Shown here: one piece after another, positions 7,903-44,602 of the stretch
Layout of the letters: each line of letters opens with the position of its first letter
Numbering within the stretch: position 1 is the first letter of the stretch
Origin: Bacteroidota bacterium
GTDB lineage: Bacteria; Bacteroidota; Bacteroidia; B-17B0; Aurantibacillaceae
DNA: 64,000 bases
Direction of reading: 5' to 3'
Assembly: GCA_029237825.1 (NCBI GenBank)
Contig: JAQZBQ010000006.1
Coordinates: 1-64,000 of the forward strand
Notes under the pieces: model-generated
The model's database searches: none
The model's input: only the letters and a program-made list of their open reading frames with translations
Told to the model about the DNA's origin: nothing
Position numbers and translations under genes: made by a program

Positions 7903-9267
7903 TTATACTTTTATACCAATTACCAACACGTCGTCTACCTGTTCGTGTGCGCCTTTCCAGGAATTGAACTTTTCTTCGAGAATAAGACTCTGTTCGGTGA
8001 GAGGAAGCCTATGCACTGACAGTAGGAGTTCTTCAAATTGCTTATACTTAAATTTCTTTCCTTTTGGCCCTCCAAACTGATCTGCGAACCCATCTGTAAA
8101 TGTATAAATCATATCGCCCGGTTGAAGCGCAATCTGATTATAGGTGAATGGTAATGAATCGTCGTGCCCTATCCCCACCGGCATTTTATCCGCTTTACAT
8201 ACTAAAATTGCATTGTCCCTGATAATATAAAATGAATTATTAGCGGCGGAATACTCCAGCTTCAAACCCGCTATGTTTAATTTGCAGAGTACCGCATCCA
8301 TGCCATCCTTACTTTCACCGGAAGATCCTTCCGCGTTTAATCCCTTGATGATTTCGGTGCGGATGTAATTTAAAATCCAATCGGGCCGGGTAATTTTGTT
8401 TTCGTTGATGCACTGGCTCAATTTGCTGATATTGAGCAAACTCATAAAAGCGCCCGGAACTCCATGACCGGTGCAATCCGCAGTAACATAAATAAAACAT
8501 CCATCTGGTGTTGGTGTTGCCCAATAAAAATCACCGCTTACCACATCTTTGGGTTTAAAAAATATAAAACGGTTAGGCAGGAATTCATTCAACAAGTTTT
8601 CAGAAGCCAATAATGCAAACTGAATGCGTTTTGCATAGTTAATGCTATCCATTATCTCCTTTTGCTTCTCTTCGATGACTTGTTTCTGGCCAATGATGGC
8701 CTTCTGGAATAATAAATTTTCGCGTCTGAAAAACACAAAGAATAAAACGGTAATTACAAACAACACAAAAAGGTTTACTATACTGATTATTCCCTGTGTC
8801 CGTTTCATTTCTTCAGTAAAAGGAATAAGGCCAGGTTTGCCACCAAAGAAAATAACCAACGAAAAAAAACAAATTACTGCAAGGACTATGAATAACCGTA
8901 GCGCCGCATTGCTTTTAAACAAGGCGATTGCAATAAGGCACATGATGATGATGAAAAAATGCAGGTTGGATTGTATCCCGTAAAAAACCGAGCCAAAAGT
9001 AAAATAAAATAAACCGTAGGCACTGGAAAGAAACACAGAGGCATTAAATAAACCGCGGGCATTTAAAAAAAGGCATATCAGAGCAGAGATAAAAAATAAA
9101 AGATTTAAAACTGCAATCCCCAGGATATTGTATAAAATGGTAACAGGTATGTACGCTACCATGGTAACAATGGTGAAAAGAGAAATCATGTTACTGATTC
9201 TCATGCGGCGGTTCAGGTTATCATCTTGCGAAGCCAAAACGCCAATATTTAGTATTTTATTAATCAT
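7903..9267 (-). CDS. Membrane SpoIIE-type PP2C serine phosphatase
   Basis: The 454-residue protein has about six N-terminal membrane helices (roughly residues 25-185), a helical linker (QVIEEKQKEIMDSINYAKRIQ) and a C-terminal SpoIIE/PP2C domain. Metal-binding motifs are present: GDFYWA, TADCTGHGVPGAFMS, DGMDAVL and DGFADQFGG. Such proteins dephosphorylate Ser/Thr residues, often on anti-sigma antagonists, under control of the sensor region. The start ATG overlaps the stop of the upstream TPR-SpoIIE gene by four bases (ATGA), so the two are translationally coupled. No anti-sigma or STAS partner is adjacent, and the target is unknown. Confidence 0.9.
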   Translation of the reverse strand: MINKILNIGVLASQDDNLNRRMRISNMISLFTIVTMVAYIPVTILYNILGIAVLNLLFFISALICLFLNARGLFNASVFLSSAYGLFYFTFGSVFYGIQSNLHFFIIIMCLIAIALFKSNAALRLFIVLAVICFFSLVIFFGGKPGLIPFTEEMKRTQGIISIVNLFVLFVITVLFFVFFRRENLLFQKAIIGQKQVIEEKQKEIMDSINYAKRIQFALLASENLLNEFLPNRFIFFKPKDVVSGDFYWATPTPDGCFIYVTADCTGHGVPGAFMSLLNISKLSQCINENKITRPDWILNYIRTEIIKGLNAEGSSGESKDGMDAVLCKLNIAGLKLEYSAANNSFYIIRDNAILVCKADKMPVGIGHDDSLPFTYNQIALQPGDMIYTFTDGFADQFGGPKGKKFKYKQFEELLLSVHRLPLTEQSLILEEKFNSWKGAHEQVDDVLVIGIKV

Positions 9268-11273
9268 GCGATACGAATTCCAATAATAAGGATGTCATCA
9301 ACCTGTTCGAGATTGCCCTGCCATTGAACCAATACCTCGTTAAGTGTGTCTTTCTGGCTATCCATGCTTTTGTGACTGTTTTCCAGAAGCAACGCATTCA
9401 AAGGCTTGTATTTAAATTTTTTTCCTTTAGGTCCGCCAAACTGATCGGCATAACCATCTGTGTATAAATACAACACGTCTCCAGACATTAATTGTTGTTC
9501 GAATGACTGGAATGGTTTCTCATTTTCACCTTTTCCAACAGGCATACGATCTTTTTCCAACTCAAAAATCTTATTATCCCGTATCAAAACCACGGTATTG
9601 TTGGCTGCAGAATATTCTATCCGTTTCTCCTTTTTATGATAGGCAATTAAAACTCCATCCATACCGTCTTTCTGTCCCTCGCCGCTTATGGAATTAGTAA
9701 GCCGGTCACGAACATAGTTAAATATTGCATCCGGGTATTTAATTTTCTTTTCGCGGACAGCTTCATTTAAAAACCCAATGTTTAATAAACTCATAAAAGC
9801 ACCTGGTACTCCGTGCCCAGTACTATCACATACTGCAAGATAGAACACACCCTCCTGTTCAGCAGCCCAGTAAAAATCTCCGCTAACAATATCTTTAGGT
9901 TTAAAATATACCATAAACTCTGACCTTCCCGTCGAATCGGCCAATTCCAAATTTCCTTTTAGCAGATCATCGCTCGCAAGCAATGCATACTGGATTCGTT
10001 TAGCATAATTTATGGAATCTAGTATCTCTTTTTGCTTCCCTTCAATTACATGTTTCTGCCGTTCAATCTCAATCTGCTTTTTTTCCACCTCTTCCTTTTG
10101 TAAGTATATTAAATGATGAGCAATCTTTTTTTGTTTGTATACACGATACATGAAAAAAGCAAACAAAAGGGACAAAACAAAAGCAGAAATGATGAAATAG
10201 GAAATTAATTTTTGCTGCTTAATTGTACGAACAGAAAGTTCGTTTTGTTTTTTTAAAAGTGCGTTCTGCTGTTCCTTCTTTTCCGTTCCATACTTCGTAT
10301 TTAACTCTTCAACCTGCTGACTAGCAACTTCACCCAGGTACAACTTATTAATTGAATCATATCGTAACCGGAGTTGATACGCCATTTTATAATTTCCTTT
10401 TAGAGCATATAAATCCGAAAACTCTTCGAGGGCAATCTTGAGGTTAAAGATATCTGAAGTGCGCTCAGAATAAGAAATGTATTGTTGGTAATATAATTCC
10501 GCTTTTCCATAATTGCCTAGATCTTTATTTACCGCACCTAACAAACCATATATATAATAAATAGCTGTAGAGTCGCTATCCTGGAAATGAAGCGTGAGTG
10601 CAGTATCTGCATATTGCTGAACTTTTGAAAACAACTTTCTATCGTTTGTTTCCTGGGCAAGTGCATAATATGCGTTAGCAAGGTTATCCAAAATGATTAC
10701 CTCGAAATGGCGGATACCATGTTTCCTTGAGACACGCAGACCGATATCAAGAATAGCGATAGTTGAATCTACCTGACCCTGGGTATTAAAATAATCAGCC
10801 AGGTTTACAATAGACCCGAGGTAAGACTTGTAGTTTTTTTCTGATAGCGAAGCTTGTTGCTGAAGTTTAAAATATTTGTAGGCTTCTTCCTTGCGATACA
10901 ATCGTAAATAAATGTATCCGATTTGCCCATAAATTGGAGATACTCCGGCGTTATACGTCGTTTCCAAAATTTTCCTCGCCTTAAGGTAATTCACCAAAGC
11001 GTCATTGAACTTAAAAAGCCGTGAATTGGCTACACCCAGGTTGGTATACGCCCGAACTTTATGCGGAGTAGAATTTACCCTGATTGCAAGCTCTAGTTGC
11101 AGATTAGCATATTTAAAAAGGGAATCAGCACTTTCATCTTCATATTTATGACACAAATTGTTATACTCATTCAATAAAATCGTGTCATGAACGGGCGATT
11201 GCGCGCACAAATTATTCTTGCCCAGAAAAAAAATGACGAATAATAGGGTGATGGTATTTCCTTTTCCTAACAC
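9264..11273 (-). CDS. TPR sensor SpoIIE-type PP2C phosphatase
   Basis: The 669-residue protein has a signal/anchor segment (LLFVIFFLGKNNLCAQ), tetratricopeptide repeats over about residues 40-330, one membrane helix near 350-370, a coiled coil (EEVEKKQIEIERQKHVIEGK) and a SpoIIE phosphatase domain with GDFYWA, VCDSTGHGVPGAFMS, DGMDGVL and DGYADQFGG. The repeats are therefore predicted to be periplasmic and the phosphatase cytoplasmic. The start is GTG: an in-frame TAA lies just upstream and no ATG fits the signal sequence. It lies 41 bases after its paralogue at 11315-13495 and overlaps the next one. Confidence 0.9.
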   Translation of the reverse strand: MLGKGNTITLLFVIFFLGKNNLCAQSPVHDTILLNEYNNLCHKYEDESADSLFKYANLQLELAIRVNSTPHKVRAYTNLGVANSRLFKFNDALVNYLKARKILETTYNAGVSPIYGQIGYIYLRLYRKEEAYKYFKLQQQASLSEKNYKSYLGSIVNLADYFNTQGQVDSTIAILDIGLRVSRKHGIRHFEVIILDNLANAYYALAQETNDRKLFSKVQQYADTALTLHFQDSDSTAIYYIYGLLGAVNKDLGNYGKAELYYQQYISYSERTSDIFNLKIALEEFSDLYALKGNYKMAYQLRLRYDSINKLYLGEVASQQVEELNTKYGTEKKEQQNALLKKQNELSVRTIKQQKLISYFIISAFVLSLLFAFFMYRVYKQKKIAHHLIYLQKEEVEKKQIEIERQKHVIEGKQKEILDSINYAKRIQYALLASDDLLKGNLELADSTGRSEFMVYFKPKDIVSGDFYWAAEQEGVFYLAVCDSTGHGVPGAFMSLLNIGFLNEAVREKKIKYPDAIFNYVRDRLTNSISGEGQKDGMDGVLIAYHKKEKRIEYSAANNTVVLIRDNKIFELEKDRMPVGKGENEKPFQSFEQQLMSGDVLYLYTDGYADQFGGPKGKKFKYKPLNALLLENSHKSMDSQKDTLNEVLVQWQGNLEQVDDILIIGIRIA

Positions 11274-11314
11274 AAATTTCTTTTAATTAAAATTAGAACA
11301 TCGTTCCATCAACT

Positions 11315-13495
11315 TTAAAACTTAATTCCAACAACCAAGATATCATCCACCTGCTCCAAGCTACCTTTCCAGGTATCCAAAGCGTTTCCAAGTAATTTAC
11401 CTTGCGCTGCAAGTGATTCGGTACTATTCTGTAAAAGTAAATCATTTAGCGTTTTGTATTTAAATTTTTTTCCTTTTGGTCCGCCAAACTGGTCGGCATA
11501 GCCATCGGTATATAAATACAACACGTCATCCTTTAAAACATCTACTGTATGGAGCGTAAAACTTTCCATGCGTTCGCCTTTACCCACAGGCATTTTATCT
11601 TTGGGCAACAAAGTAAGTTCTTTATTTCTGATAAGCGCAGGCTCGTTATTGGCAGCGGCATAAGAAATTTTACTTTCTGCTTTATCATAGCACAACAGGA
11701 TAGAATCCATACCATCTTGTTGGCCGTCATTGCCAATGTTTTGAATTAACCGCGCGCGTACGTAATTTAATACTTCGTTTGGCTGGAGGATATTCTTTTC
11801 TTTGATGGCTTCACTTAGGAACCCAATGTTCAGTAAACTCATAAACGCGCCGGGAACGCCGTGACCGGTACTATCACAAACTGCCAGGTAAAATTTATTT
11901 TCATGTTCAGTTGCCCAGTAAAAATCACCACTCACAATATCTTTAGGTTTAAAAAGAACAAAGTGTTCCAGTAAATGTTTTGAAAGAAATGATTCGTGTG
12001 CGAGCAAAGCATACTGAATTTTCCTGGCGTAATTAATCGAATCCAGAATTTCCTTTTGTTTTTCTTCAATGATCTCCTTCTGGTTAACGATTTCGGTATT
12101 GGCATGTTGCAGCGCCTCATTCTTGGCATTAATCAGATCGTTCTTGCTCTGTAAAATATTGGCGTTGTTTCTCTTTTGGATAAATGCTCTAATTAAAATG
12201 ACGCACACTAAAATCACGCAGAGAAGGATTCCAAATATCATAAACCTCTGGGCTTTCTCGCGCTTGAGTTGTTCTTCATTCTTTGTAATTTCAAGGCGGC
12301 TTATCTGTTCGGCTTTTTGAAGTTTATCTATTTCAGCCTGCTTTTTTTCAGCTTCATACATTTCCTTGTATTCCGCAACGGCCTTCTGGGTTTTTTCTCC
12401 CAAAATAGAATCCTTCAATTTCACATATTCCTTGTACATGTCATACGCTTTTCTATAGTCGCCTGTCATGCGATAAAGCATTGCCCTTTTTTGGATAACA
12501 TTTGACAAGTTGAATAAATCACCTTGTGACTCCGTAATTTTTTGTGCTTCATTTAAAACCTCGTTTGCTTTGTCAAACTTTCCTTCATTTGCATATTGCA
12601 CCGTTAAATTAATACAGGCGATAGCCACGCCATTTTCATCATTCGCTGCCCGTTTAAGTTTCAGCGCTTCTTCAAGAACTGCAGTTGCCTTTTTTGGATT
12701 TTTGAAGTAAGAAAGTTCAATCTCCGCCAGGTTAATCAAAACGGTGCCAAGCGCCCGTTTTTCCCCAATGTTCCTGTAAATTTCTTCGGCTTTCCGGAGG
12801 TAGGTTACCTGATTGGCACGATCATTCATGCCGTCGTAAGCCTGAGACATGGAGTTGTATTGATTTGCAACGGCCTTTTGGTTATTTATTTCCGAAAATA
12901 GTTTTACCGCATTTTCAAAATAAGGAATGGACTCTTTATATTTTTCGAGCCTGATAGAAACGTTTCCAAGATTTCCGTATGCGGAAGCCTTCATCCCCGC
13001 CAAACCTAATTTTTCAGCACATTTCAAAGAAAAAGCATATTCGGAAAATGCTTGTTTAAAGTTCCCCAAACGTTCGTAAATCAATCCGAAATTTCCGTGG
13101 CCTTTAGCCTCCATTAATGTGTCTTTCGCACGTATAGCTTTCTTAATCAATGTATCATATACCTGAAGCGCCACATCGTTTTTACCTGTGTAATACAATG
13201 CCAACCCTAATACGTTATAAGCTGTTAAATGAGCGCGCTGTTTCTTCGGATTATGGCGCGTTAAATCAATAAGGTGATACGCTGCTTTTTCGCCAACATT
13301 AAAATCTTCAAATACTACAAAACGTGAAAAGTTTTCGAGTGAATCAATTTTTAACGTATTCGAATTCATCTTCAGGATATCTGAAAGCTGCTTTTCATAA
13401 TCCTTATCCTGCGAGTGCAGCAACAAACCACTACATAAGAACAGGATTAAACTCATACCAAAAATCAGTCTACTCTTACTAGGGAAATTATTCAT
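11315..13495 (-). CDS. TPR sensor SpoIIE-type PP2C phosphatase
   Basis: First gene of a three-gene phosphatase operon. The 726-residue product has a signal peptide (FGMSLILFLCSGLLLHSQ), at least six TPR units over about residues 30-400, a coiled coil, a membrane helix around 430-450, a second coil (NTEIVNQKEIIEEKQKEIL) and a SpoIIE domain with GDFYWA, VCDSTGHGVPGAFMS, DGMDSIL and DGYADQFGG. I chose the ATG at 13495 because it places the signal peptide at the N-terminus; the open frame continues to 13609 but adds a basic, non-signal stretch. The target is unknown. Confidence 0.9.
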   Translation of the reverse strand: MNNFPSKSRLIFGMSLILFLCSGLLLHSQDKDYEKQLSDILKMNSNTLKIDSLENFSRFVVFEDFNVGEKAAYHLIDLTRHNPKKQRAHLTAYNVLGLALYYTGKNDVALQVYDTLIKKAIRAKDTLMEAKGHGNFGLIYERLGNFKQAFSEYAFSLKCAEKLGLAGMKASAYGNLGNVSIRLEKYKESIPYFENAVKLFSEINNQKAVANQYNSMSQAYDGMNDRANQVTYLRKAEEIYRNIGEKRALGTVLINLAEIELSYFKNPKKATAVLEEALKLKRAANDENGVAIACINLTVQYANEGKFDKANEVLNEAQKITESQGDLFNLSNVIQKRAMLYRMTGDYRKAYDMYKEYVKLKDSILGEKTQKAVAEYKEMYEAEKKQAEIDKLQKAEQISRLEITKNEEQLKREKAQRFMIFGILLCVILVCVILIRAFIQKRNNANILQSKNDLINAKNEALQHANTEIVNQKEIIEEKQKEILDSINYARKIQYALLAHESFLSKHLLEHFVLFKPKDIVSGDFYWATEHENKFYLAVCDSTGHGVPGAFMSLLNIGFLSEAIKEKNILQPNEVLNYVRARLIQNIGNDGQQDGMDSILLCYDKAESKISYAAANNEPALIRNKELTLLPKDKMPVGKGERMESFTLHTVDVLKDDVLYLYTDGYADQFGGPKGKKFKYKTLNDLLLQNSTESLAAQGKLLGNALDTWKGSLEQVDDILVVGIKF

Positions 13496-13750
13496 AATCT
13501 TATTTTTTAGAATTTTAACCTGTCCTATTTCAAAAACTTTGTAGAAGAGCACCGATTTCCTATTTTTCATCTGCCATTCCCTTTCCAGAAATAATTTCCG
13601 GTCAGACAATTAACGAATCTATCGATTTGCTCTGAGAGAACGAATGACCACAGGGAAAAAAATCAATAAGCACCGTAATTCGATTCATTAATTTCAAATT
13701 GTAAGTTACTGTCCCAATAGTTGAATCTTCCGCTATAAACCTTTTCCCAA

Positions 13751-32933: not shown

Positions 32934-33936
32934 TCCAACCATCATAATTAGTCGTACAGACAGCATTGGCGATGTTGTATTGACGCTTCCGTTGGCGGGA
33001 ATTTTAAAGAAAAAGTTCCCTACATGCAGAATTATTTTTCTTGGCCGGGATTACACGCGGGATGTGATTAGATTATCGGAACACGTAGATGAAATAATGA
33101 GTTACGATGATCTTTTAAAACTGGATTTGGGAAAACAACTCCGACGTTTTCAGGAATTAAATGCCACGCATATCCTCCATGTATTTCCTGTTAAAGAAAT
33201 AGCATTCCTTGCCAGGCGGGCCAAAATTCAAAACCGTATTGGAACTACAAACCGCGTATGGCACTGGTTTACATGTAACCGTTTCGTAAAATTATCGCGT
33301 AAAAATTCGGACCTACATGAGGCGCAGTTAAACACCAAGCTTTTAAAAGCAATGCAGATAACTGAAGATTTTTCATTAACCGACTTAACCGGGTTCTATG
33401 GTTTAAAACGAACTCCAGCGTTAGACGCCCGTTACAATACACTGATTGATCAAACGAAAACGCGAATCATCCTGCATCCTAAATCAAAAGGGAGCGCTCG
33501 CGAGTGGGGATTGGCAAATTACTCTGACCTAATAAAAGAGTTAGATACAAACACCTATCAGATTTTTATCAGCGGCACAGCGGCCGAAGGCGAACTCATT
33601 CAGCCACTCATTTCGCAACATCCGCATATAGTAAATCTAACCGGCACCTTATCACTTCAACAATTTATTGCCTTTATCAATTGCTGTGACGTGATGGTAG
33701 CGGCAAGCACCGGTCCGTTGCATATCGCCGCCGCTTTAGGAAAAAAAGCGATCGGTATATTTGCTCCAATGCGACCTATTCACCCGGGAAGATGGAAACC
33801 AATAGGAGTGAACGCCCATTATCTGGTGCAGGAAAAAGATTGCGGAGACTGCCGGAAATCGATGGATTGCCACTGCATAAGAGAAATAAAAGCTGCTGCT
33901 GTTAAAAAAATAATAGAAAAAGATGAGTGCTCTTAA
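32923..33936 (+). CDS. Family 9 glycosyltransferase (heptosyltransferase-like)
   Basis: A 337-residue GT-B enzyme of the ADP-heptose:LPS heptosyltransferase family. Visible motifs are ISRTDSIGDVVLTLPL at the N-terminus, ILHPKSKGSAREW in the middle and AASTGPLHIAAALGKKAIGIF in the C-terminal donor-binding half. The end is Cys-rich (DCGDCRKSMDCHCIREI), a feature common in this family. It sits between GT2 and an SDR gene with overlaps of 11 and 14 bases, so the three form one transcript, probably for LPS or surface glycan building. Confidence 0.92.
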   Translation: MQNNPTIIISRTDSIGDVVLTLPLAGILKKKFPTCRIIFLGRDYTRDVIRLSEHVDEIMSYDDLLKLDLGKQLRRFQELNATHILHVFPVKEIAFLARRAKIQNRIGTTNRVWHWFTCNRFVKLSRKNSDLHEAQLNTKLLKAMQITEDFSLTDLTGFYGLKRTPALDARYNTLIDQTKTRIILHPKSKGSAREWGLANYSDLIKELDTNTYQIFISGTAAEGELIQPLISQHPHIVNLTGTLSLQQFIAFINCCDVMVAASTGPLHIAAALGKKAIGIFAPMRPIHPGRWKPIGVNAHYLVQEKDCGDCRKSMDCHCIREIKAAAVKKIIEKDECS

Positions 33937-34720
33937 AAATAAAGTGGTTTGGATTACTGGCGCTTCTTCGGGCATAGGTGAATCATTGGTTCATGAATGT
34001 GCTAAACAAGGCGCAAAGATTATTTTATCGGCCCGACGAGAGGCTGAGTTATTGAGGGTAGCAAACGAGGCCAAACTTCAGGAAAATAATTTCTTAATTG
34101 TTCCCTTTGACCTGGCTGATACTTCCAGAGCAGGTGAACTTGTACTTCAGGTTATTAATAAATTCTCAAGCATTGATATACTCATTAATAATGGTGGTCA
34201 AAGCCAGCGCTCAACGGTTATGGAAACCTCAACAGATACTGAGCGCAGGCTTTTCGAAATAAATTACTTTAGCGGTGTAAACCTTTCAAAAGCGGTTTTA
34301 CCCTTTATGCTTGAAAAAGGGAAGGGAAAAATTGTTGTAGTTAGCAGCATAGCGGGAAAATTCGGATTTTATTTGCGCTCAAGCTATTCTGCTGCTAAAC
34401 ATGCGTTACACGGGTATTTTGAGAGTTTACGACTGGAAGTTGAAAAACAAGGGGTGAGTGTTTTAATGGTTTGTCCGGGGAAAATTAAAACCAATGTTTC
34501 CATAAATGCGATTTTAGCTTCTGGTATGTCTCACAACCAAATGGATGAAAGCCATGAAACGGCAATGGGCCCTGAGGCCTGCGCTCAACAAATTCTCAAA
34601 GGAATTCTTTCCGATAAAGAAGAAATTTTTATAGGCGGTAAAGAATTATTAATTGTAAAGATTAAACGATTTCTACCTTCCCTTTTCTCGAAGATTATCC
34701 GAAAACAAAGTCCGTACTAG
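33923..34720 (+). CDS. Short-chain dehydrogenase/reductase
   Basis: A 265-residue classical SDR with a Rossmann fold: cofactor motif TGASSGIG (residues 11-18), NNGG in ILINNGGQSQ, catalytic Ser in VVSSIAGKFG, and YxxxK (YSAAKHAL). Arg residues after strand 2 (SARREAEL) favour NADPH. It resembles the DHRS7-like group. It is coupled to the GT9 gene by a 14-base overlap. A role as ketoreductase for the nearby polyketide-type cluster is conceivable but not supported by strand or operon. Confidence 0.9.
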   Translation: MSALKNKVVWITGASSGIGESLVHECAKQGAKIILSARREAELLRVANEAKLQENNFLIVPFDLADTSRAGELVLQVINKFSSIDILINNGGQSQRSTVMETSTDTERRLFEINYFSGVNLSKAVLPFMLEKGKGKIVVVSSIAGKFGFYLRSSYSAAKHALHGYFESLRLEVEKQGVSVLMVCPGKIKTNVSINAILASGMSHNQMDESHETAMGPEACAQQILKGILSDKEEIFIGGKELLIVKIKRFLPSLFSKIIRKQSPY

Positions 34721-34764: not shown

Positions 34765-35529
34765 TTAAAATTTTTCAGGAAGCACCATCTCATATCCTCT
34801 TTCACGAATAGCGGGGATAAGCGCTTCTAACAGATCTGGCATAAAAGCCAGGCGATCGTGCAAGAGAATAATTGCGCCAGGTTTTAGGCGTGAAAGAACG
34901 CGGTCTTTTATTTTTTCAATGTCTTTAATCTGCGTATCGTAACTTCTGATTGTCCATCCAATGGATTGCAAATCTAATCTTTTTACAGCCCTTGCGATAT
35001 TAGGGTTTGTAACTCCGTAAGGTGGACGAAACAGATTGGTGCTTTGATACTTCTGAAGTAAAAGATTGCACTTGTTAAAATCTTCGGTAACCTTTTTAGT
35101 TGGCCAAACATCAATCCAATTGTGGTGTGAAAAACTATGGTTCCCTATTTTGTGGCCTTCAGAAACTATCTGCTGCATAATCCATTCTTTTCCTTTTATA
35201 TTTTTCCCAATAATAAAAAAAAGAGCTTTTACCTGATATCGTTTAAGGACTTCCAACACTTTAAGTGTATGTGTATGAGGGCCATCATCAAAGGTTAAAA
35301 CTATTTGTCTTTGGTTTGTATTAATGGATTTAACGGATGGTAAATGAAAATTTAAACCTATGAAGTAAGCGCCGCAAAATTGAATGGCGGCAAATATGGC
35401 GATCCAGAATACCAGGTACCACACACTTAACTGCATACTAAAATAAAATACTAATAAGGATATTAACCCGATAAAGAAGATTATGGTAACGTTCCAAAAT
35501 TTCATGAATTGACTGTCTGGCTTAGACAT
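34765..35529 (-). CDS. Polysaccharide deacetylase (NodB homology)
   Basis: The 254-residue protein has two N-terminal membrane helices (about 12-55) and a NodB domain (about 70-250) with the metal/catalytic motifs TFDDGPH, HSFSHHN and RPPYG, plus ILLHDR near the end. It is a carbohydrate esterase family 4 type protein that would face the periplasm. It is transcribed in the same direction as the ketosynthase cluster and follows it by 94 bases. A purine-rich GAGGGAGTA precedes the ATG. The substrate is unknown. Confidence 0.92.
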   Translation of the reverse strand: MSKPDSQFMKFWNVTIIFFIGLISLLVFYFSMQLSVWYLVFWIAIFAAIQFCGAYFIGLNFHLPSVKSINTNQRQIVLTFDDGPHTHTLKVLEVLKRYQVKALFFIIGKNIKGKEWIMQQIVSEGHKIGNHSFSHHNWIDVWPTKKVTEDFNKCNLLLQKYQSTNLFRPPYGVTNPNIARAVKRLDLQSIGWTIRSYDTQIKDIEKIKDRVLSRLKPGAIILLHDRLAFMPDLLEALIPAIRERGYEMVLPEKF

Positions 35530-35623
35530 TACTCCCTCGACTACTATTTAAGTCTTCAAAATAAACCATCATATAGCTCAAAAATCAGTATAAGTATTAA
35601 TGTCTAAATACACCATAAGATTC

Positions 35624-36685
35624 TTAACACTGACTAACTAAGGTGAACGAATAATTAATGTCAAGGTATTGATTAATAATCAGAACGTATTTAATTTTCG
35701 AAGGTAACTTAGCCGAAATAGCCAGTACCTTTGGCAATTGTTGCCGCTCGATGATTTTGGTTGCCGTCCACATTGCAAAAGCAGTTGCCGTATGATATTC
35801 ACCGCAGACATTTTTAAAAGCCCCTGCAGTAGTTTCTTTTTCAATCTCAGGCAAGAGTGACTTAAGTTTTTCATCGAAAATCAAATCACCGCTAAAACCC
35901 ATTAAAGCAACATCCATATCTGAAAGTGTCAACCTATGAGAACTTAAAAACATGTGAAGCTTCTTTAAAATATCTTCGGAATTTTTAGGCTTGTACAACG
36001 TTTGAATGCCGTTAATGCAAGCAAGGCTGCTTTGGGTTTTGTTCCTACTCAACACGAAAAAGGCAGCTCCTTCGCTCATTTGAATCCCTCTTTTTTCACT
36101 CATCCAGATCGGCATATCCGGCTCCCGTACCTGAAATTTATTCGCCTTACGGTTAAGTAAAATATAATTTGGGGTATGCTCTTCGATGCCACCGACCAAT
36201 ATGGTATCTTTTCCTTCGTCAAAAAGCATCAATGCATCCTGCACCGTACTTTCAAATGAAAATCCACGATGTACATAAGTGAAATTATAATCATGGCACT
36301 TCATAATAAGTGCGATTTGTGACCCTACGGTATTATGAGTAGATTGAATGAAAGATGTTGGGGTTAAAAATTGTTCATCGTTATCCAAGATCGCCAATAA
36401 AAAACGCTCACTGTCTTCAAAACATCCAAGACCTGTACCCGTTACAATAGCATCTACATTCTTGACGCCAGCCTGTTGAATTGCAATATTACCTGCCGCC
36501 ACACCCATTTTAATGGCGCGACCCATGCGACGTAAAAGATTGGGGGCAATAAAATCCTTATAGGAAGGTTCAATCGCCTCAAAGTAATCACCTTTAGGGC
36601 TATGAACCTCGTCAAAAAACCAATCACTATCGATTGAGTTTTGCGGTGAAATGCAACCAGTTCCGTTTATATAAGCTTTAGCCAA
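35624..36685 (-). CDS. Ketosynthase-like protein lacking the active-site Cys
   Basis: The 353-residue protein has the thiolase fold of beta-ketoacyl synthases (MAKAYINGTGCISPQ start, ILVGGIEE, EGAAFFVLSR) but not the catalytic set. By hand alignment the nucleophile position in the block ending FSFESTVQDALML is Glu145, the HGTGT His is missing (LMGFSGDL), and only the last His is kept (CGEYHTATAFAMW). It may be a chain-length factor or structural partner of the ketosynthase encoded just upstream. I propose a TTG start at 36685, one base after the upstream stop; the open frame reaches an ATG at 36754, but that would need a 68-base overlap and an off-family N-terminus. Confidence 0.78.
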   Translation of the reverse strand: MAKAYINGTGCISPQNSIDSDWFFDEVHSPKGDYFEAIEPSYKDFIAPNLLRRMGRAIKMGVAAGNIAIQQAGVKNVDAIVTGTGLGCFEDSERFLLAILDNDEQFLTPTSFIQSTHNTVGSQIALIMKCHDYNFTYVHRGFSFESTVQDALMLFDEGKDTILVGGIEEHTPNYILLNRKANKFQVREPDMPIWMSEKRGIQMSEGAAFFVLSRNKTQSSLACINGIQTLYKPKNSEDILKKLHMFLSSHRLTLSDMDVALMGFSGDLIFDEKLKSLLPEIEKETTAGAFKNVCGEYHTATAFAMWTATKIIERQQLPKVLAISAKLPSKIKYVLIINQYLDINYSFTLVSQC

Positions 36686-36686
36686 A

Positions 36687-37880
36687 TTATGCTTTCTTAA
36701 ATAGTAATGACGAGCAGTTTCCCCCAAATCCAAAAGAGTTAGAGAGAATAACATTTAATGGTGTATGCACCAAGGTTGTTTCAGGTATCAATCCGGTTTC
36801 TGCAATTGGTGTATTGAAATTCAGGTTCGGAAAAATCATGCTATTTTGAAGCGATAATACTGAAATCACTGCTTCGATGCTAGCTGCCGCCGCTAGTGTA
36901 TGTCCGGTAAAAGCTTTTGTTGAACTGAATTTTGGGACCTGGTTACCAAACACAGCAACGGTTGCTTTGCTTTCGGACAAATCATTATTAGGCGTGCCGG
37001 TGCCATGCATGTTAATGTAATCAATATCTGTAGGTTTTAATCCACTTAATGCCAGAGCCTGCTGGATGGCTAAAGTTGCGCCGAAACCTTCGGGTGATGA
37101 AGCTGTTAGATGATAAGCGTCGTTTGTATTGGCATAGCCAATCAGCTCTGCGAGCGCTTTTCCTTTGCGGTGGTTTAATGCGTTTTCTCCTTCAATAACC
37201 ACAAAGGCAGCTCCTTCCCCTAAATTTAGTCCTTTCCGGTTTTCATCAAAAGGCCTGCACCATTCACGATCCAGTATCATGAGTGTATTAAAACCATTGA
37301 ACGTAAACTTTGATAATGCGTCCACACCCCCAACAACAACCCTGTCTAAATGGCCATGCTTAATCATTCTGCATCCCAACATAATTGCATTTGCAGCAGA
37401 AGAACATGCTGTTGAAATCGTTGTAACATAATCCACATTCCCGATGTAATCCGCAATGCGCTCCGTACTGTCACCGCAATCGTGAGTATCTAAAACATCC
37501 AGGTGTTCATCGTTTTTAAAAAGGTCTTTGTAATACAACTCGGTTTTACTCATTCCTGCCACAGTTGTTGACGAGATAACACCGGTACGTAAACCGTCTT
37601 TAGTATCTATACCTGAATTCAAAACTGCTTCCTTGGCAGCCAACATGGCGATATAGGAATTACGGTTCAATGCCGGATTCTGATCCCCTACAAGATCCGC
37701 CAATTCAGCATTTGATAATTTTATTTCACCGGCAAGAAACTCATCCTTGTAACGAGTTGTTAAATATTGAATTTTACCAATACCGGTTTTTGATTGAGAA
37801 AGGGATAAAAAACATTCAGGCACATTGTTTCCAATAGCCGAAATCATTCCTAACCCGGTAATATAAACTTTTTGCGACAA
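36687..37880 (-). CDS. Beta-ketoacyl-ACP synthase (KAS I/II type)
   Basis: The 397-residue condensing enzyme has a full Cys-His-His set: Cys159 in STACSSAANAI, His292 in MHGTGTPNND and His327 in AFTGHTLAAA. It extends an ACP-bound acyl or polyene chain with malonyl-ACP. Its position between an ACP gene (six bases upstream) and a Cys-less ketosynthase-like gene downstream fits a ketosynthase/chain-length-factor pair of a type II PKS of the aryl polyene or flexirubin kind, not housekeeping fatty-acid synthesis. Confidence 0.92.
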   Translation of the reverse strand: MSQKVYITGLGMISAIGNNVPECFLSLSQSKTGIGKIQYLTTRYKDEFLAGEIKLSNAELADLVGDQNPALNRNSYIAMLAAKEAVLNSGIDTKDGLRTGVISSTTVAGMSKTELYYKDLFKNDEHLDVLDTHDCGDSTERIADYIGNVDYVTTISTACSSAANAIMLGCRMIKHGHLDRVVVGGVDALSKFTFNGFNTLMILDREWCRPFDENRKGLNLGEGAAFVVIEGENALNHRKGKALAELIGYANTNDAYHLTASSPEGFGATLAIQQALALSGLKPTDIDYINMHGTGTPNNDLSESKATVAVFGNQVPKFSSTKAFTGHTLAAAASIEAVISVLSLQNSMIFPNLNFNTPIAETGLIPETTLVHTPLNVILSNSFGFGGNCSSLLFKKA

Positions 37881-37886
37881 AGCGAA

Positions 37887-38144
37887 TTACGATTTCCCCT
37901 GTGATTTGATGTATTCAGCCATCGTTCTTAACGACTGAAAAATAGTTTTACCATCTTTAGGATCCTGAATTTTAATCCCATAATGCTTTTCGAGCAGTAC
38001 AATTAATTCCAAAGCATCAATTGAATCAAGGCCTAAGCCTTCGCCGAACAAAGGAGAATCCGGGTTAATTTCTTCGGGCTTAACTTCAGCTAAATTTAAC
38101 TGTTCAATTATTTGTCCTTTTAATTTTTCGATTAATGCGTCCAT
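37887..38144 (-). CDS. Acyl carrier protein
   Basis: An 85-residue four-helix carrier protein. The phosphopantetheine attachment site is Ser41 in GLGLDSIDALEL. It differs from the housekeeping AcpP in its N-terminus and in the EGLGLDSIDALEL version of the motif, as seen in secondary-metabolism ACPs. Its ATG lies immediately next to the stop of the 211-residue ketosynthase-like gene, and a ketosynthase follows by six bases, so it is the dedicated carrier of this cluster. Confidence 0.95.
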   Translation of the reverse strand: MDALIEKLKGQIIEQLNLAEVKPEEINPDSPLFGEGLGLDSIDALELIVLLEKHYGIKIQDPKDGKTIFQSLRTMAEYIKSQGKS

Positions 38145-38780
38145 TTATGTTAGATTATATAATTCGGTTAGTGTTGTTTGGTTAAGAGGTTTAAAAATAG
38201 CGTTTTTATTTGTATTTCTTTGAGATTCACTTAAAAAAATAAAGGCTTCATCATTGTTTGTCTCTGCCTCTACCCATCCAGCAATAACAGCATCTATGCC
38301 ATTAAGGTAAAGGGATTCGCAATAATTAATGAGTAATGCAGGGTCAAATTTTTCACAAACAAAAAACGCATTTTCCCCTGTTATTTTATGACGAATGGCC
38401 AGCTCTCCGATTGTGATATTGGGAAGTGTATAAACGAAAATGGCCGGCGACGGAAAATAATTGGATTTGTCGCTAATTGAATTCTGGTAGGCCTTATCAG
38501 TATCGAGACTCGAGGCATGGTTTGAAAAAACAATAGCAATTTTTGCCAAATCATTTTCGGTCAACAATGCTGTTTCCCTTAATGCAAATTCCGTAGCGAT
38601 GATCGCTAATTTGCATTGCACATCCATTTTATGAAATTTGGGGTAATTCATTGCAAGGAATTTATAGGATTCCAACAAAAACTCATGTATTGAAACGGAT
38701 GAAGCAGATTTAAAAACAACCGTGCCGTTAACTGTTACCGTATTGTGCTTAATGTGGGCGTATGATGTGATCGCGTTCAA
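38145..38780 (-). CDS. Half-length ketosynthase-like protein (Ketoacyl-synt_2 type)
   Basis: A 211-residue protein that matches only the N-terminal half of a ketosynthase (KLAIIATEFALRET, FPSPAIFVYTLPNITIGELA, IDAVIAGWVEAE). By hand alignment the position of the nucleophilic Cys is Glu143 (FVCEKFD), and the His motifs are absent with the missing half. Proteins of this size and pattern (beta-ketoacyl synthase chain length factor, Ketoacyl-synt_2, ApeC-like) occur in aryl polyene and flexirubin clusters. It probably has a non-catalytic, pairing or chain-length role. It abuts the ACP gene exactly and follows the 38789-39922 ketosynthase by eight bases. Confidence 0.75.
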   Translation of the reverse strand: MNAITSYAHIKHNTVTVNGTVVFKSASSVSIHEFLLESYKFLAMNYPKFHKMDVQCKLAIIATEFALRETALLTENDLAKIAIVFSNHASSLDTDKAYQNSISDKSNYFPSPAIFVYTLPNITIGELAIRHKITGENAFFVCEKFDPALLINYCESLYLNGIDAVIAGWVEAETNNDEAFIFLSESQRNTNKNAIFKPLNQTTLTELYNLT

Positions 38781-38788
38781 ATTTCCTA

Positions 38789-39922
38789 TCAGTTAATTTT
38801 TTTAAATAAAGCGGCTGCATTGCAACCACCAAATCCGGAAGCAGTTTTAATAAACGAATTAAATGCTTTTTCCTTATGACGGTCAATCATCGTGATATGG
38901 CCACTTATTCCTTTTATCTCATAACCTTCAGATTTAATCAACCGTTGATGCTTCATGGATTCTAGTGAGAGTATCGTTTCCAAAACCCCCGCGGCACCAA
39001 GCGTATGTCCGTAATACCCTTTTAAACTATTAACAGGCACTTCCGACAAACCGCTTCGCTCAAATGCAATGGATTCCATTTCATCATTGTACGGAGTGGC
39101 CGTTCCATGCGCTGAAATAAATCCAATTTCTGAGTGATTGTCTTTTAATATTTGTTGCAGACATTGGAACAACCCTTCGCCTGTTCTTGACGGTCCGGAA
39201 ATGTGATTGGCATCATTGGCCGACGCTCCTGCTACAACTTCGGCATCATACTTGCCAGCGTACGTTTTTTGGTTTGTAATCAGAATTGAGGCAACCGCTT
39301 CACCAAGGTTAATCCCTGTGCGGTTAGCGTCAAATGGTTTTGAAGGATCACCGCTTAACGCATTGAAAGATTTAAAACCACTCATCGTAAATTCAGAAAG
39401 GATATCTCCTCCGCAAACAATAACATTGTCGTACTGTTTGGTTTCGATCAACCGCTTTGCAACAATAATTCCGAGTATACCTGAAATACAGGCATTTGAT
39501 AAAATGAGTGGTGTGTGTTTAAATTTAAAATAAGATTGCAGTTGTTTGCCTAATTCAGAGAGGTAAACTCTATTTGGATTCATATGCGGATAACTATTTT
39601 CAAGAACATCAATATTCCCTTTGGTAGTAGAATAGAGTAATAATGTTCGTTCACCCGACGGATCCAACCCGCTTTTTCTAATAACATCCTGAATGGAAAG
39701 GATACTTAACTGTTCCAATTTTGTAAATGATTCAGGCGCCTGGATAACTGAAACATGTTCCTTGATTTTTTCGTCGTCGATCTTTGCTACGCAAAACGGT
39801 TCAGTTGCAAAAGGGAAAATTATTTTCCGGACTCCGGTTTTTGAATGGGTAACAGCATGGAAATTTTCCTCCGTAGAAAATCCCAACGGACTTATAATAT
39901 TGTTATAGGAGGCAAAGATCAT
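38789..39922 (-). CDS. Beta-ketoacyl synthase
   Basis: The 377-residue condensing enzyme has Cys145 (LSNACISGILG), His272 (SAHGTATPYND) and His306 (GYYGHTLGAAG), so it should be active. It is somewhat shorter than FabF and begins MIFASYNNIISPLGFST. Its start overlaps the stop of the Cys-rich small gene by four bases (ATGA). It is the first of four ketosynthase-fold genes in this operon and may start or extend the chain together with the half-length partner that follows. Confidence 0.9.
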   Translation of the reverse strand: MIFASYNNIISPLGFSTEENFHAVTHSKTGVRKIIFPFATEPFCVAKIDDEKIKEHVSVIQAPESFTKLEQLSILSIQDVIRKSGLDPSGERTLLLYSTTKGNIDVLENSYPHMNPNRVYLSELGKQLQSYFKFKHTPLILSNACISGILGIIVAKRLIETKQYDNVIVCGGDILSEFTMSGFKSFNALSGDPSKPFDANRTGINLGEAVASILITNQKTYAGKYDAEVVAGASANDANHISGPSRTGEGLFQCLQQILKDNHSEIGFISAHGTATPYNDEMESIAFERSGLSEVPVNSLKGYYGHTLGAAGVLETILSLESMKHQRLIKSEGYEIKGISGHITMIDRHKEKAFNSFIKTASGFGGCNAAALFKKIN

Positions 39923-40128
39923 TTTTGACTTAAAAATTCATTCTTTAAAAATAACAAACAGCAACTACAAACACAATTTGAATAACGGCCGGACATGTAT
40001 AGTAGTTCCTCTTTTGTAAGGTGTATTTTTGAACAGAAGCATTCCGCGATGTTAGCGGAATTACATTCAAGCGGCTGATTGCACCGCTCACAACGCACGT
40101 TTTCAATCGTTAAAGAATCCATCACCAT
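39919..40128 (-). CDS. Small Cys-rich (CWC-type) protein
   Basis: A 69-residue protein with nine Cys in the pattern CxxCx5C, CxC, then CxCxCC (residues 13-57), fitting the cysteine-rich CWC family and suggesting zinc binding. Function is unknown. It is the first gene of the ketosynthase operon, overlapping the next gene by four bases (ATGA). The ATG at residue 3 is an equal alternative start. Because of its size, the call rests on the Cys pattern, the tight overlap and the intact frame. Confidence 0.72.
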   Translation of the reverse strand: MVMDSLTIENVRCERCNQPLECNSANIAECFCSKIHLTKEELLYMSGRYSNCVCSCCLLFLKNEFLSQK

Positions 40129-40155: not shown

Positions 40156-40187
40156 AAAAACCTCCCCGATTTCACGGGAAGGTTTTT
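40156..40187 (-). terminator. Intrinsic terminator after rpmF
   Basis: Stem AAAAACCTCCCCG / CGGGAAGGTTTTT with a short ATTTCA loop and one internal mismatch, followed on the minus strand by a run of seven T. It lies 20 bases past the rpmF stop and separates it from the ketosynthase operon, which is on the same strand. Confidence 0.88.
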
Positions 40188-43143: not shown

Positions 43144-43189
43144 GCCTAATTGCAGGCCTGTACATAAACTTTTGTATATTAGAGTCTTA

Positions 43190-44602
43190 ATGGAAGACAC
43201 CGCTGTATCGCCAAGGCTTGTCAAGGCTGAATTTGATAAATCAACTGAAAAATTCCACGCCCTGGCATGTTGGATTGGCATTGCTTTAAACCTTGTTTGG
43301 TTTATCGGTGATTATTTAAGCATACCCGAACACTGGGTACCCTTTCTCATTTTCAGGGTTTGTGTTTCAGGAACAAGCCTTTTCGTATTACTTCTTAAAG
43401 ATGTTTTAAAAGTCAGTATTTACACTTGTTTATTTATTCTGGTCCTGGGCATCTCCATTCAAAACGCCTATATGTGGAGCCTGATGGATATTCCGCATTT
43501 GCAAAAGCATGCTTTTGCTTACATGGTGCTCTTTATTGGCGTTGGGATGCTTGTGTTATGGGAACAGAAACTTTCGTGGCTGTTGCTCGGCGCCACAATC
43601 CTAAGTAATATTATTTTTTATGTGGTAAACAGTCCGTTAACGGTAGATGAGTTCATAACAAACGGTGGCCTTCTTGTGCTAACCGTTGTAATTTTCAGTG
43701 TCTTCTTAATCAGAAGCCGTTACCGGCTAACCTATAAAGAAATTCAAAGTCGGCTCGAACTTGAAAAATCTAAAAAACTGATTGAATTTCAAAAAGAAGA
43801 AGTTGAAGAAAAGAACCAGGAAATTGTAAGCAGCTTGCGTTACGCAAAACGTTTGCAGGAAGCTCTGTTGCCTCCTAAAAATTTATTAGACAGTTTTTTC
43901 GATGACAATTACTTTATCCTGTATCACCCGCGAGATATTGTTTGCGGTGATTTTTACTGGGCAAGAAAAATAAAATCCACGCCAGAGAGCGGTAAATCAA
44001 AAGATTACCTTTTAATTGCAGTTGCCGATTGTACTGGCCATGGCGTTCCTGGAGCGTTTATGAGCTTATTAGGCTCAAATTTTTTACATCAAAGTGCTGT
44101 GGAAAAAAGCGTGAATACAACCGCTGAAGCGCTGGACTTCCTGAATCAAAAAATTATTACCACACTAAACCACGGATATGGTGGTGTTGAAATCCGCGAC
44201 GGGATGGATATTTCCCTTATTGCAATTGATCTGGAAACCAAACAGCTTTCATACTCTGGCGCAAACAACCCGGCGTATATAGTAAGAAATAAAACGCTTC
44301 AAACACTAAAAGCAAATAAGCAAGCTATCGGCAATATGAATGATGTGGTACTGCCTTATGATAATGTTATTATCCAGTTAGAGCCAAATGACTGCATTTA
44401 TTTGTTTACTGATGGTTACGCCGACCAGTTTGGCGGCCCAAAAGGAAAAAAGTTAATGCGTAAACAATTTGAAGAAACACTTATAGCAGCTTCGGATAAA
44501 CCCATGGCGGATCAAAAGAAAATTTTGGAAAACACTTTCAATGATTGGAAAGGGTCGCTTGAGCAGGTTGACGATGTGTGTGTAGTGGGTGTACGCATCT
44601 AA
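43190..44602 (+). CDS. Membrane SpoIIE-type PP2C serine phosphatase
   Basis: Fourth SpoIIE phosphatase in the window. The 470-residue protein has about six membrane helices (residues 25-185), a coiled coil (ELEKSKKLIEFQKEEVEEKN) and a SpoIIE domain with CGDFYWA, VADCTGHGVPGAFMS, DGMDISL and DGYADQFGG. The family-wide ending W.G.LEQVDD...VGVRI is kept. I take the ATG at 43190; a TTG at 43172 is in frame but sits in promoter-like sequence. It is closest in layout to the 7903-9267 gene. It converges with the AsmA-like gene with three bases between stops. Confidence 0.9.
   Translation: MEDTAVSPRLVKAEFDKSTEKFHALACWIGIALNLVWFIGDYLSIPEHWVPFLIFRVCVSGTSLFVLLLKDVLKVSIYTCLFILVLGISIQNAYMWSLMDIPHLQKHAFAYMVLFIGVGMLVLWEQKLSWLLLGATILSNIIFYVVNSPLTVDEFITNGGLLVLTVVIFSVFLIRSRYRLTYKEIQSRLELEKSKKLIEFQKEEVEEKNQEIVSSLRYAKRLQEALLPPKNLLDSFFDDNYFILYHPRDIVCGDFYWARKIKSTPESGKSKDYLLIAVADCTGHGVPGAFMSLLGSNFLHQSAVEKSVNTTAEALDFLNQKIITTLNHGYGGVEIRDGMDISLIAIDLETKQLSYSGANNPAYIVRNKTLQTLKANKQAIGNMNDVVLPYDNVIIQLEPNDCIYLFTDGYADQFGGPKGKKLMRKQFEETLIAASDKPMADQKKILENTFNDWKGSLEQVDDVCVVGVRI

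Follow-up and report, generated by a model that had tools for sequence, protein, structure and literature searches.

Genes and layout of the ketosynthase operon

The window, the whole 64,000-nucleotide stretch of DNA that was analysed, carries on its minus strand at 34765-40128, in order, genes for a Cys-rich CWC protein, a ketosynthase (KSa), a half-length ketosynthase (KS)-like protein, an acyl carrier protein (ACP), a second ketosynthase (KSb), a Cys-less KS-like protein (CLF) and a NodB-type polysaccharide deacetylase. All of these genes were present as described in the first-pass annotation, and their core consists of the five close-packed minus-strand genes from KSa to CLF, at 35624-39922. 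The features, together with the orthology assigned to each below, are as follows.

34765-35529, minus strand: NodB-type polysaccharide deacetylase, FlxP orthologue (PF01522, 2e-31)
35624-36685, minus strand: CLF, FlxO orthologue, 353 aa (KS fold; beside FlxO in the KS tree)
36687-37880, minus strand: KSb, FlxN orthologue, active ketosynthase (FlxN clade, 100/99)
37887-38144, minus strand: acyl carrier protein, FlxM orthologue (GLDSID attachment motif)
38145-38780, minus strand: half-length KS-like protein, FlxL orthologue (FlxL clade, 100/99; single KS domain)
38789-39922, minus strand: KSa, FlxI orthologue, active ketosynthase (Cys-His-His intact; FlxI clade, 100/100)
39919-40128, minus strand: Cys-rich CWC protein, 69 aa (PF14375, above cut-off)
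40156-40187, minus strand: intrinsic-terminator-like hairpin, between rpmF and the operon

The distances between the first six genes, from CWC to CLF, are -4, 8, 0, 6 and 1 bp, the first of these being a 4-bp overlap of the CWC and KSa genes. The earlier description of one operon with spacing of -4 to 8 bases therefore held for these six genes but not for the deacetylase gene, which follows CLF after a gap of 94 bp. At the other end, rpmF is set apart from the KS operon by the terminator-like hairpin (40187-40156). Six core genes were under purifying selection when compared with two congeners, and are thus considered real genes; dN/dS, or pN/pS where synonymous sites were saturated, was 0.00-0.27 for the operon genes.

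Active-site residues of the KS-type proteins were compared with those of the FabF encoded in this genome. KSa and KSb retain the catalytic Cys and the two His residues; CLF has lost all three catalytic residues, and in the half-length protein the Cys is absent and the chain ends before the His-bearing C-terminal half. An ATG at 36754 was rejected as the CLF start, since the start of same-genus homologues indicated an over-extended reading frame; the likely start is the TTG at 36685, giving 353 aa, and several same-genus homologues (352-353 aa) start at the equivalent site. The AlphaFold model of CLF (pLDDT 86) has a KS/CLF fold, and chains 1tqy_A and 1tqy_B of the actinorhodin KS/CLF are among its matches. 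For the half-length protein (pLDDT 85), Foldseek returned moderate fold matches to the ishigamide KS/CLF chain 6kxd_B and to ApeC (6qsp_B), and sequence comparison with the PDB gave no clear match and no link to ApeC. In the gene order, an active KS adjoins a protein of predicted KS fold that lacks the catalytic Cys, a feature of KS/CLF heterodimers. From this adjacency, and by analogy, we infer the pairing of each KS with its partner: CLF is the probable chain-length-factor partner of KSb, and the half-length protein, judged by its model, probably serves as an ApeC-like chain-length-factor partner. The two non-catalytic genes gave dN/dS or pN/pS values of 0.09-0.18 against the two congeners, and loss of their catalytic residues under such purifying selection is therefore not decay.

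The deacetylase has the motifs TFDDGP, HSFSHH, RPPYG and LLHDR and a hydrophobic stretch at its N-terminus. Its position is the same in reference flexirubin clusters, and it may have a role in the pathway. The neighbouring SDR gene at 33923-34720 was considered as a missing ketoreductase (KR), and this was not supported, since the reference clusters lack the gene and contig C33 carries a better KR. As a separate observation, five SpoIIE-phosphatase-like proteins, named from sequence, were found in the stretches read; the C-terminal region of this type, with motifs such as DCTGHGVPGAFMSL and FTDGYADQFGGPKGKK, occurs in the window at 7903-13609 and 43172-44602 and at L008 18207-19958, which suggests a putative expanded signalling family.

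Relationship to flexirubin reference clusters

Flexirubin is a yellow-orange pigment of Bacteroidota, where it is used as a chemotaxonomic marker. The Chitinophaga pinensis flexirubin cluster, flxA-flxY, contains five KS-type genes (FlxC, I, L, N and O), its FlxP-U include a polysaccharide deacetylase, LolA, a GT and an exporter, and the activities of FlxA and FlxY have been shown biochemically (Schoner et al. 2014, PMC3992019). We found that the C. pinensis gene order fits the published lettering, and flx letters were assigned to single genes from gene order. In this cluster, flxI, L, M, N, O and P are the counterparts of the window genes, which keep the same order and share 37-61% identity (61% for the ACP). 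The two differ in that flxJ and flxK lie between flxI and flxL in C. pinensis but not here, where a FlxJ-type methyltransferase gene instead adjoins flxA, and in that the CWC gene here precedes flxI.

Four named genomes came out of a scan: Flavobacterium anhuiense, Pseudozobellia, Epilithonimonas hungarica and C. pinensis. The order KSa-half-ACP-KSb-CLF-deacetylase recurs in E. hungarica and, with one extra 170-aa open reading frame called between KSa and the half-length gene, in F. anhuiense; in C. pinensis it is interrupted by two inserted genes (methyltransferase/FAD), and Pseudozobellia has KSa-MT-half-ACP-KSb-CLF with no adjacent deacetylase called. The gene set had been described as unusual, a view that is not tenable given this recurrence in three of the named genomes. 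Where the Flavobacterium and Epilithonimonas clusters (L111, L113, L206) share the KSa-to-deacetylase order, they continue with LolA, dehydratase (DH) and GT genes, and their dar, ABC, thioesterase and KS genes form one continuous stretch, whereas in our genome these lie tens of kb apart or on separate contigs.

The KS tree agreed with the gene order. KSa fell in the FlxI clade, KSb in the FlxN clade, and the KS encoded on C33 with FlxC (100/100), and each of the five KS-fold proteins FlxC, I, L, N and O was placed with its C. pinensis or Flavobacterium counterpart. The genome's own FabF, on C15, was separate from KSa and KSb. A housekeeping FabF/FabB origin of the KS genes is ruled out by the tree and by the genome distribution described below. 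As judged from sequence, the window operon is the orthologue of flxI-flxL-flxM-flxN-flxO-flxP, the chain-building or elongation module of the flexirubin pathway. The proposal that it forms the KS/CLF/ACP core of a flexirubin- or aryl-polyene-type pathway was borne out by the tree, the gene order and the pathway genes found elsewhere in the genome.

The CWC gene is the only odd gene of the operon. It occupies the slot taken in the reference clusters by a 4HBT thioesterase gene, and it also heads the flexirubin KS operon of the congener G016 (L050 7154-7357); it was not at the head of the KS operons of G004, G006, G012, G014, G024 and G027, or of the named reference clusters examined. We rejected it as a pathway gene because, among the congeners read, it heads the operon in only one, and it is probably a local passenger outside the flexirubin pathway.

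Dispersal and co-distribution of the pathway genes

Flexirubin genes usually lie contiguously in one cluster, and contiguity is not essential. In this genome, which was read in stretches chosen around search hits, they were found at about eight loci, counting the window operon. The search for darA/darB, ammonia-lyase, ligase, KR and DH genes elsewhere in the genome, suggested as a check in the first-pass annotation, located them all; the operon is accordingly one fragment of a scattered pathway, and not the compact form of the cluster that had been proposed. The other loci and their main genes are listed here.

C33:54685-60664: FlxJ-family methyltransferase, with divergent FlxA, KR, KS, ACP and LPLAT
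C33:55902-57440, inside the preceding locus: FlxA tyrosine ammonia-lyase (NF053541, 819.5 bits, cut-off 700)
C28:96353-97654: FlxY 4-coumarate CoA ligase (NF053551, 704.2 bits, cut-off 520)
C26:107945-110512: DarB, small gene and BtrH_N/DUF4872 gene
C26:107945-109084, inside the preceding locus: DarB (NF053539, 604.8, cut-off 550)
C22:427178-428134: DarA homologue, 40% identity
C27:17998-20515: dehydratase and ABC pair
C27:175519-177628: thioesterase, LolA, unknown gene and FabA-like dehydratase
C3:14972-16180: GT

FlxA, FlxY, DarA, DarB, FlxJ and the dehydratases of the C. pinensis pathway thus all exist outside the window, whereas C. pinensis has one flx cluster plus a dar pair; the F. johnsoniae flexirubin cluster is 37 kb (cited in PMC3992019). 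FlxJ scored slightly under its curated cut-off (531.9 against 560), and DarA matched no curated model. The C33 KR is 60% identical to that of C. pinensis, and a second ACP, besides that of the window, is encoded on C33. For the C27 dehydratases, Pfam ApeP/ApeI matches were under cut-off, and for one of them the FabA-like match was above it. A C45/AAT-type acyltransferase gene (C18:28196-29953 = L097 13196-14953), 49% identical to the C. pinensis gene directly before a PPTase-like gene, may be a ninth locus; its product is a candidate enzyme for linking the polyene to the dialkylresorcinol.

Most of the pathway loci lie well within contigs, among unrelated genes, and the dispersal is therefore not an assembly artefact. 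The DarA locus is near the end of C22 here and is internal in the congener G004, and dispersal is common to congeners and G024. A literature search on dispersed flexirubin genes found nothing directly on the subject among open-licence papers.

The FlxU-type RND/MMPL exporter was not found in this assembly (G000). It is present in the related genomes G004, G006, G016 and G024, adjoining in each a BadF-type kinase gene that is kept even in the pathway-less G010 and was also not found in this assembly. Because this conserved neighbouring gene is absent as well, the exporter most likely lies in an assembly gap, and we do not conclude that it was truly lost. In G033 (L060 3093-6944), a 1283-aa MMPL exporter-acyltransferase-methyltransferase fusion adjoins an ammonia-lyase operon, and a similar 1291-aa protein occurs in C. 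pinensis.

Across 41 genomes, one and the same set of 20 carried DarA, DarB (counted from 50% identity upwards) and the FlxC-type KS; the window's KSb, counted above 43% identity, occurred in this set and also in G035, or 21 of 41. Four genomes of the window's own genus, G009, G010, G011 and G015, some of whose assemblies are fragmented or incomplete, had no detected DarA, DarB, FlxC KS or KSb; these pathway-less congeners keep FabF and are without the window operon. Their absences may reflect few independent losses. G035, in which DarA is absent and DarB is represented only by a distant relative (41%), carries a KR-DH-ACP-KS-CLF-DH set (L047 7921-11833) that by its gene content looks like an aryl-polyene variant lacking the dialkylresorcinol.

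Proposed pathway and alternatives

We consider it highly probable that the window's flxI, L, M, N, O and P genes form the module for polyene chain elongation in a flexirubin pathway whose genes lie scattered at about eight loci. The gene identities, active-site residues, orthology, co-distribution and purifying selection were each shown; the predicted product is flexirubin, an aryl polyene ester of a dialkylresorcinol, and the pathway is likely functional. In the proposed scheme, drawn mostly from homology, FlxA (C33) would deaminate tyrosine to 4-coumarate, which FlxY (C28) would activate. Malonyl units would be added on dedicated ACPs by two pairs, KSb with the inactive CLF and KSa with the half-length protein as its ApeC-like partner, and the third KS, FlxC (C33), would also take part. 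The C33 ketoreductase and two hot-dog dehydratases would convert every beta-keto unit into a double bond. The ring would be methylated by FlxJ, and a dialkylresorcinol made by DarA and DarB would be joined to the polyene as an ester; transport would involve LolA, the GT, the ABC pair and an RND/MMPL exporter.

Part of this scheme resembles aryl-polyene (APE) systems, in which ApeO pairs with ApeC, a half-size CLF, as a KS-CLF heterodimer, and a second KS, ApeR, complements it (6QSP; PMC8358021). Common features are an active KS whose partner is half-size or inactive, the dedicated ACPs and the iterative polyene elongation. This genome differs in having two sets of a KS and its partner besides a third KS, priming by tyrosine ammonia-lyase and CoA ligase, and dialkylresorcinol genes. 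The operon might alternatively make a plain E. coli/Xanthomonas-type aryl-polyene lipid without a resorcinol ester, and the half-size CLF of APE clusters (PMC8358021), the DarA-less G035 set and the curated models are compatible with this: the best model for KSb is PRK09185, with a score under that model's cut-off, and that for the ACP is PRK09184 (87.7 against a cut-off of 70). However, the genome has DarA and DarB, which co-distribute with the operon, and FlxA and FlxY, which would prime with tyrosine-derived 4-coumarate, score above curated cut-offs. We regard such a lipid as improbable.

A decaying, non-functional pathway, to which the missing exporter, the dispersed genes and the four pathway-less congeners could point, appears more improbable still, since every reading frame is intact, pN/pS or dN/dS is low throughout, catalytic residues are retained, congeners and G024 show the same dispersal, and the absence of the BadF-type kinase gene along with the exporter points to an assembly gap. 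An accessory fatty-acid synthase operon for ordinary lipids, unrelated to pigment, would account for the fatty-acid-synthase-like character of KS, ACP, KR and DH, but hardly merits credence when the genome has its own FabF on C15, separate in the tree, and pathway-less congeners that retain FabF are missing the operon.

The flexirubin module thus remains the preferred reading. Its enzymes are ordinary for flexirubin, and what is mildly new is that, in this genus, a pathway spread across about eight loci is still kept or lost together. With rather less confidence than for the module itself, we favor the idea that the flexirubin pathway of this genus, although split into about eight unlinked loci, is kept or lost whole and persists without clustering, and that two distinct KS/inactive-partner pairs and a third KS build one polyene. 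Cluster-based mining would likely list an orphan aryl-polyene piece and, apart from it, a resorcinol fragment, rather than one pathway. The genus offers a natural example of a dispersed secondary pathway that is still inherited or lost together, and such co-distribution helps to define the core pathway genes.
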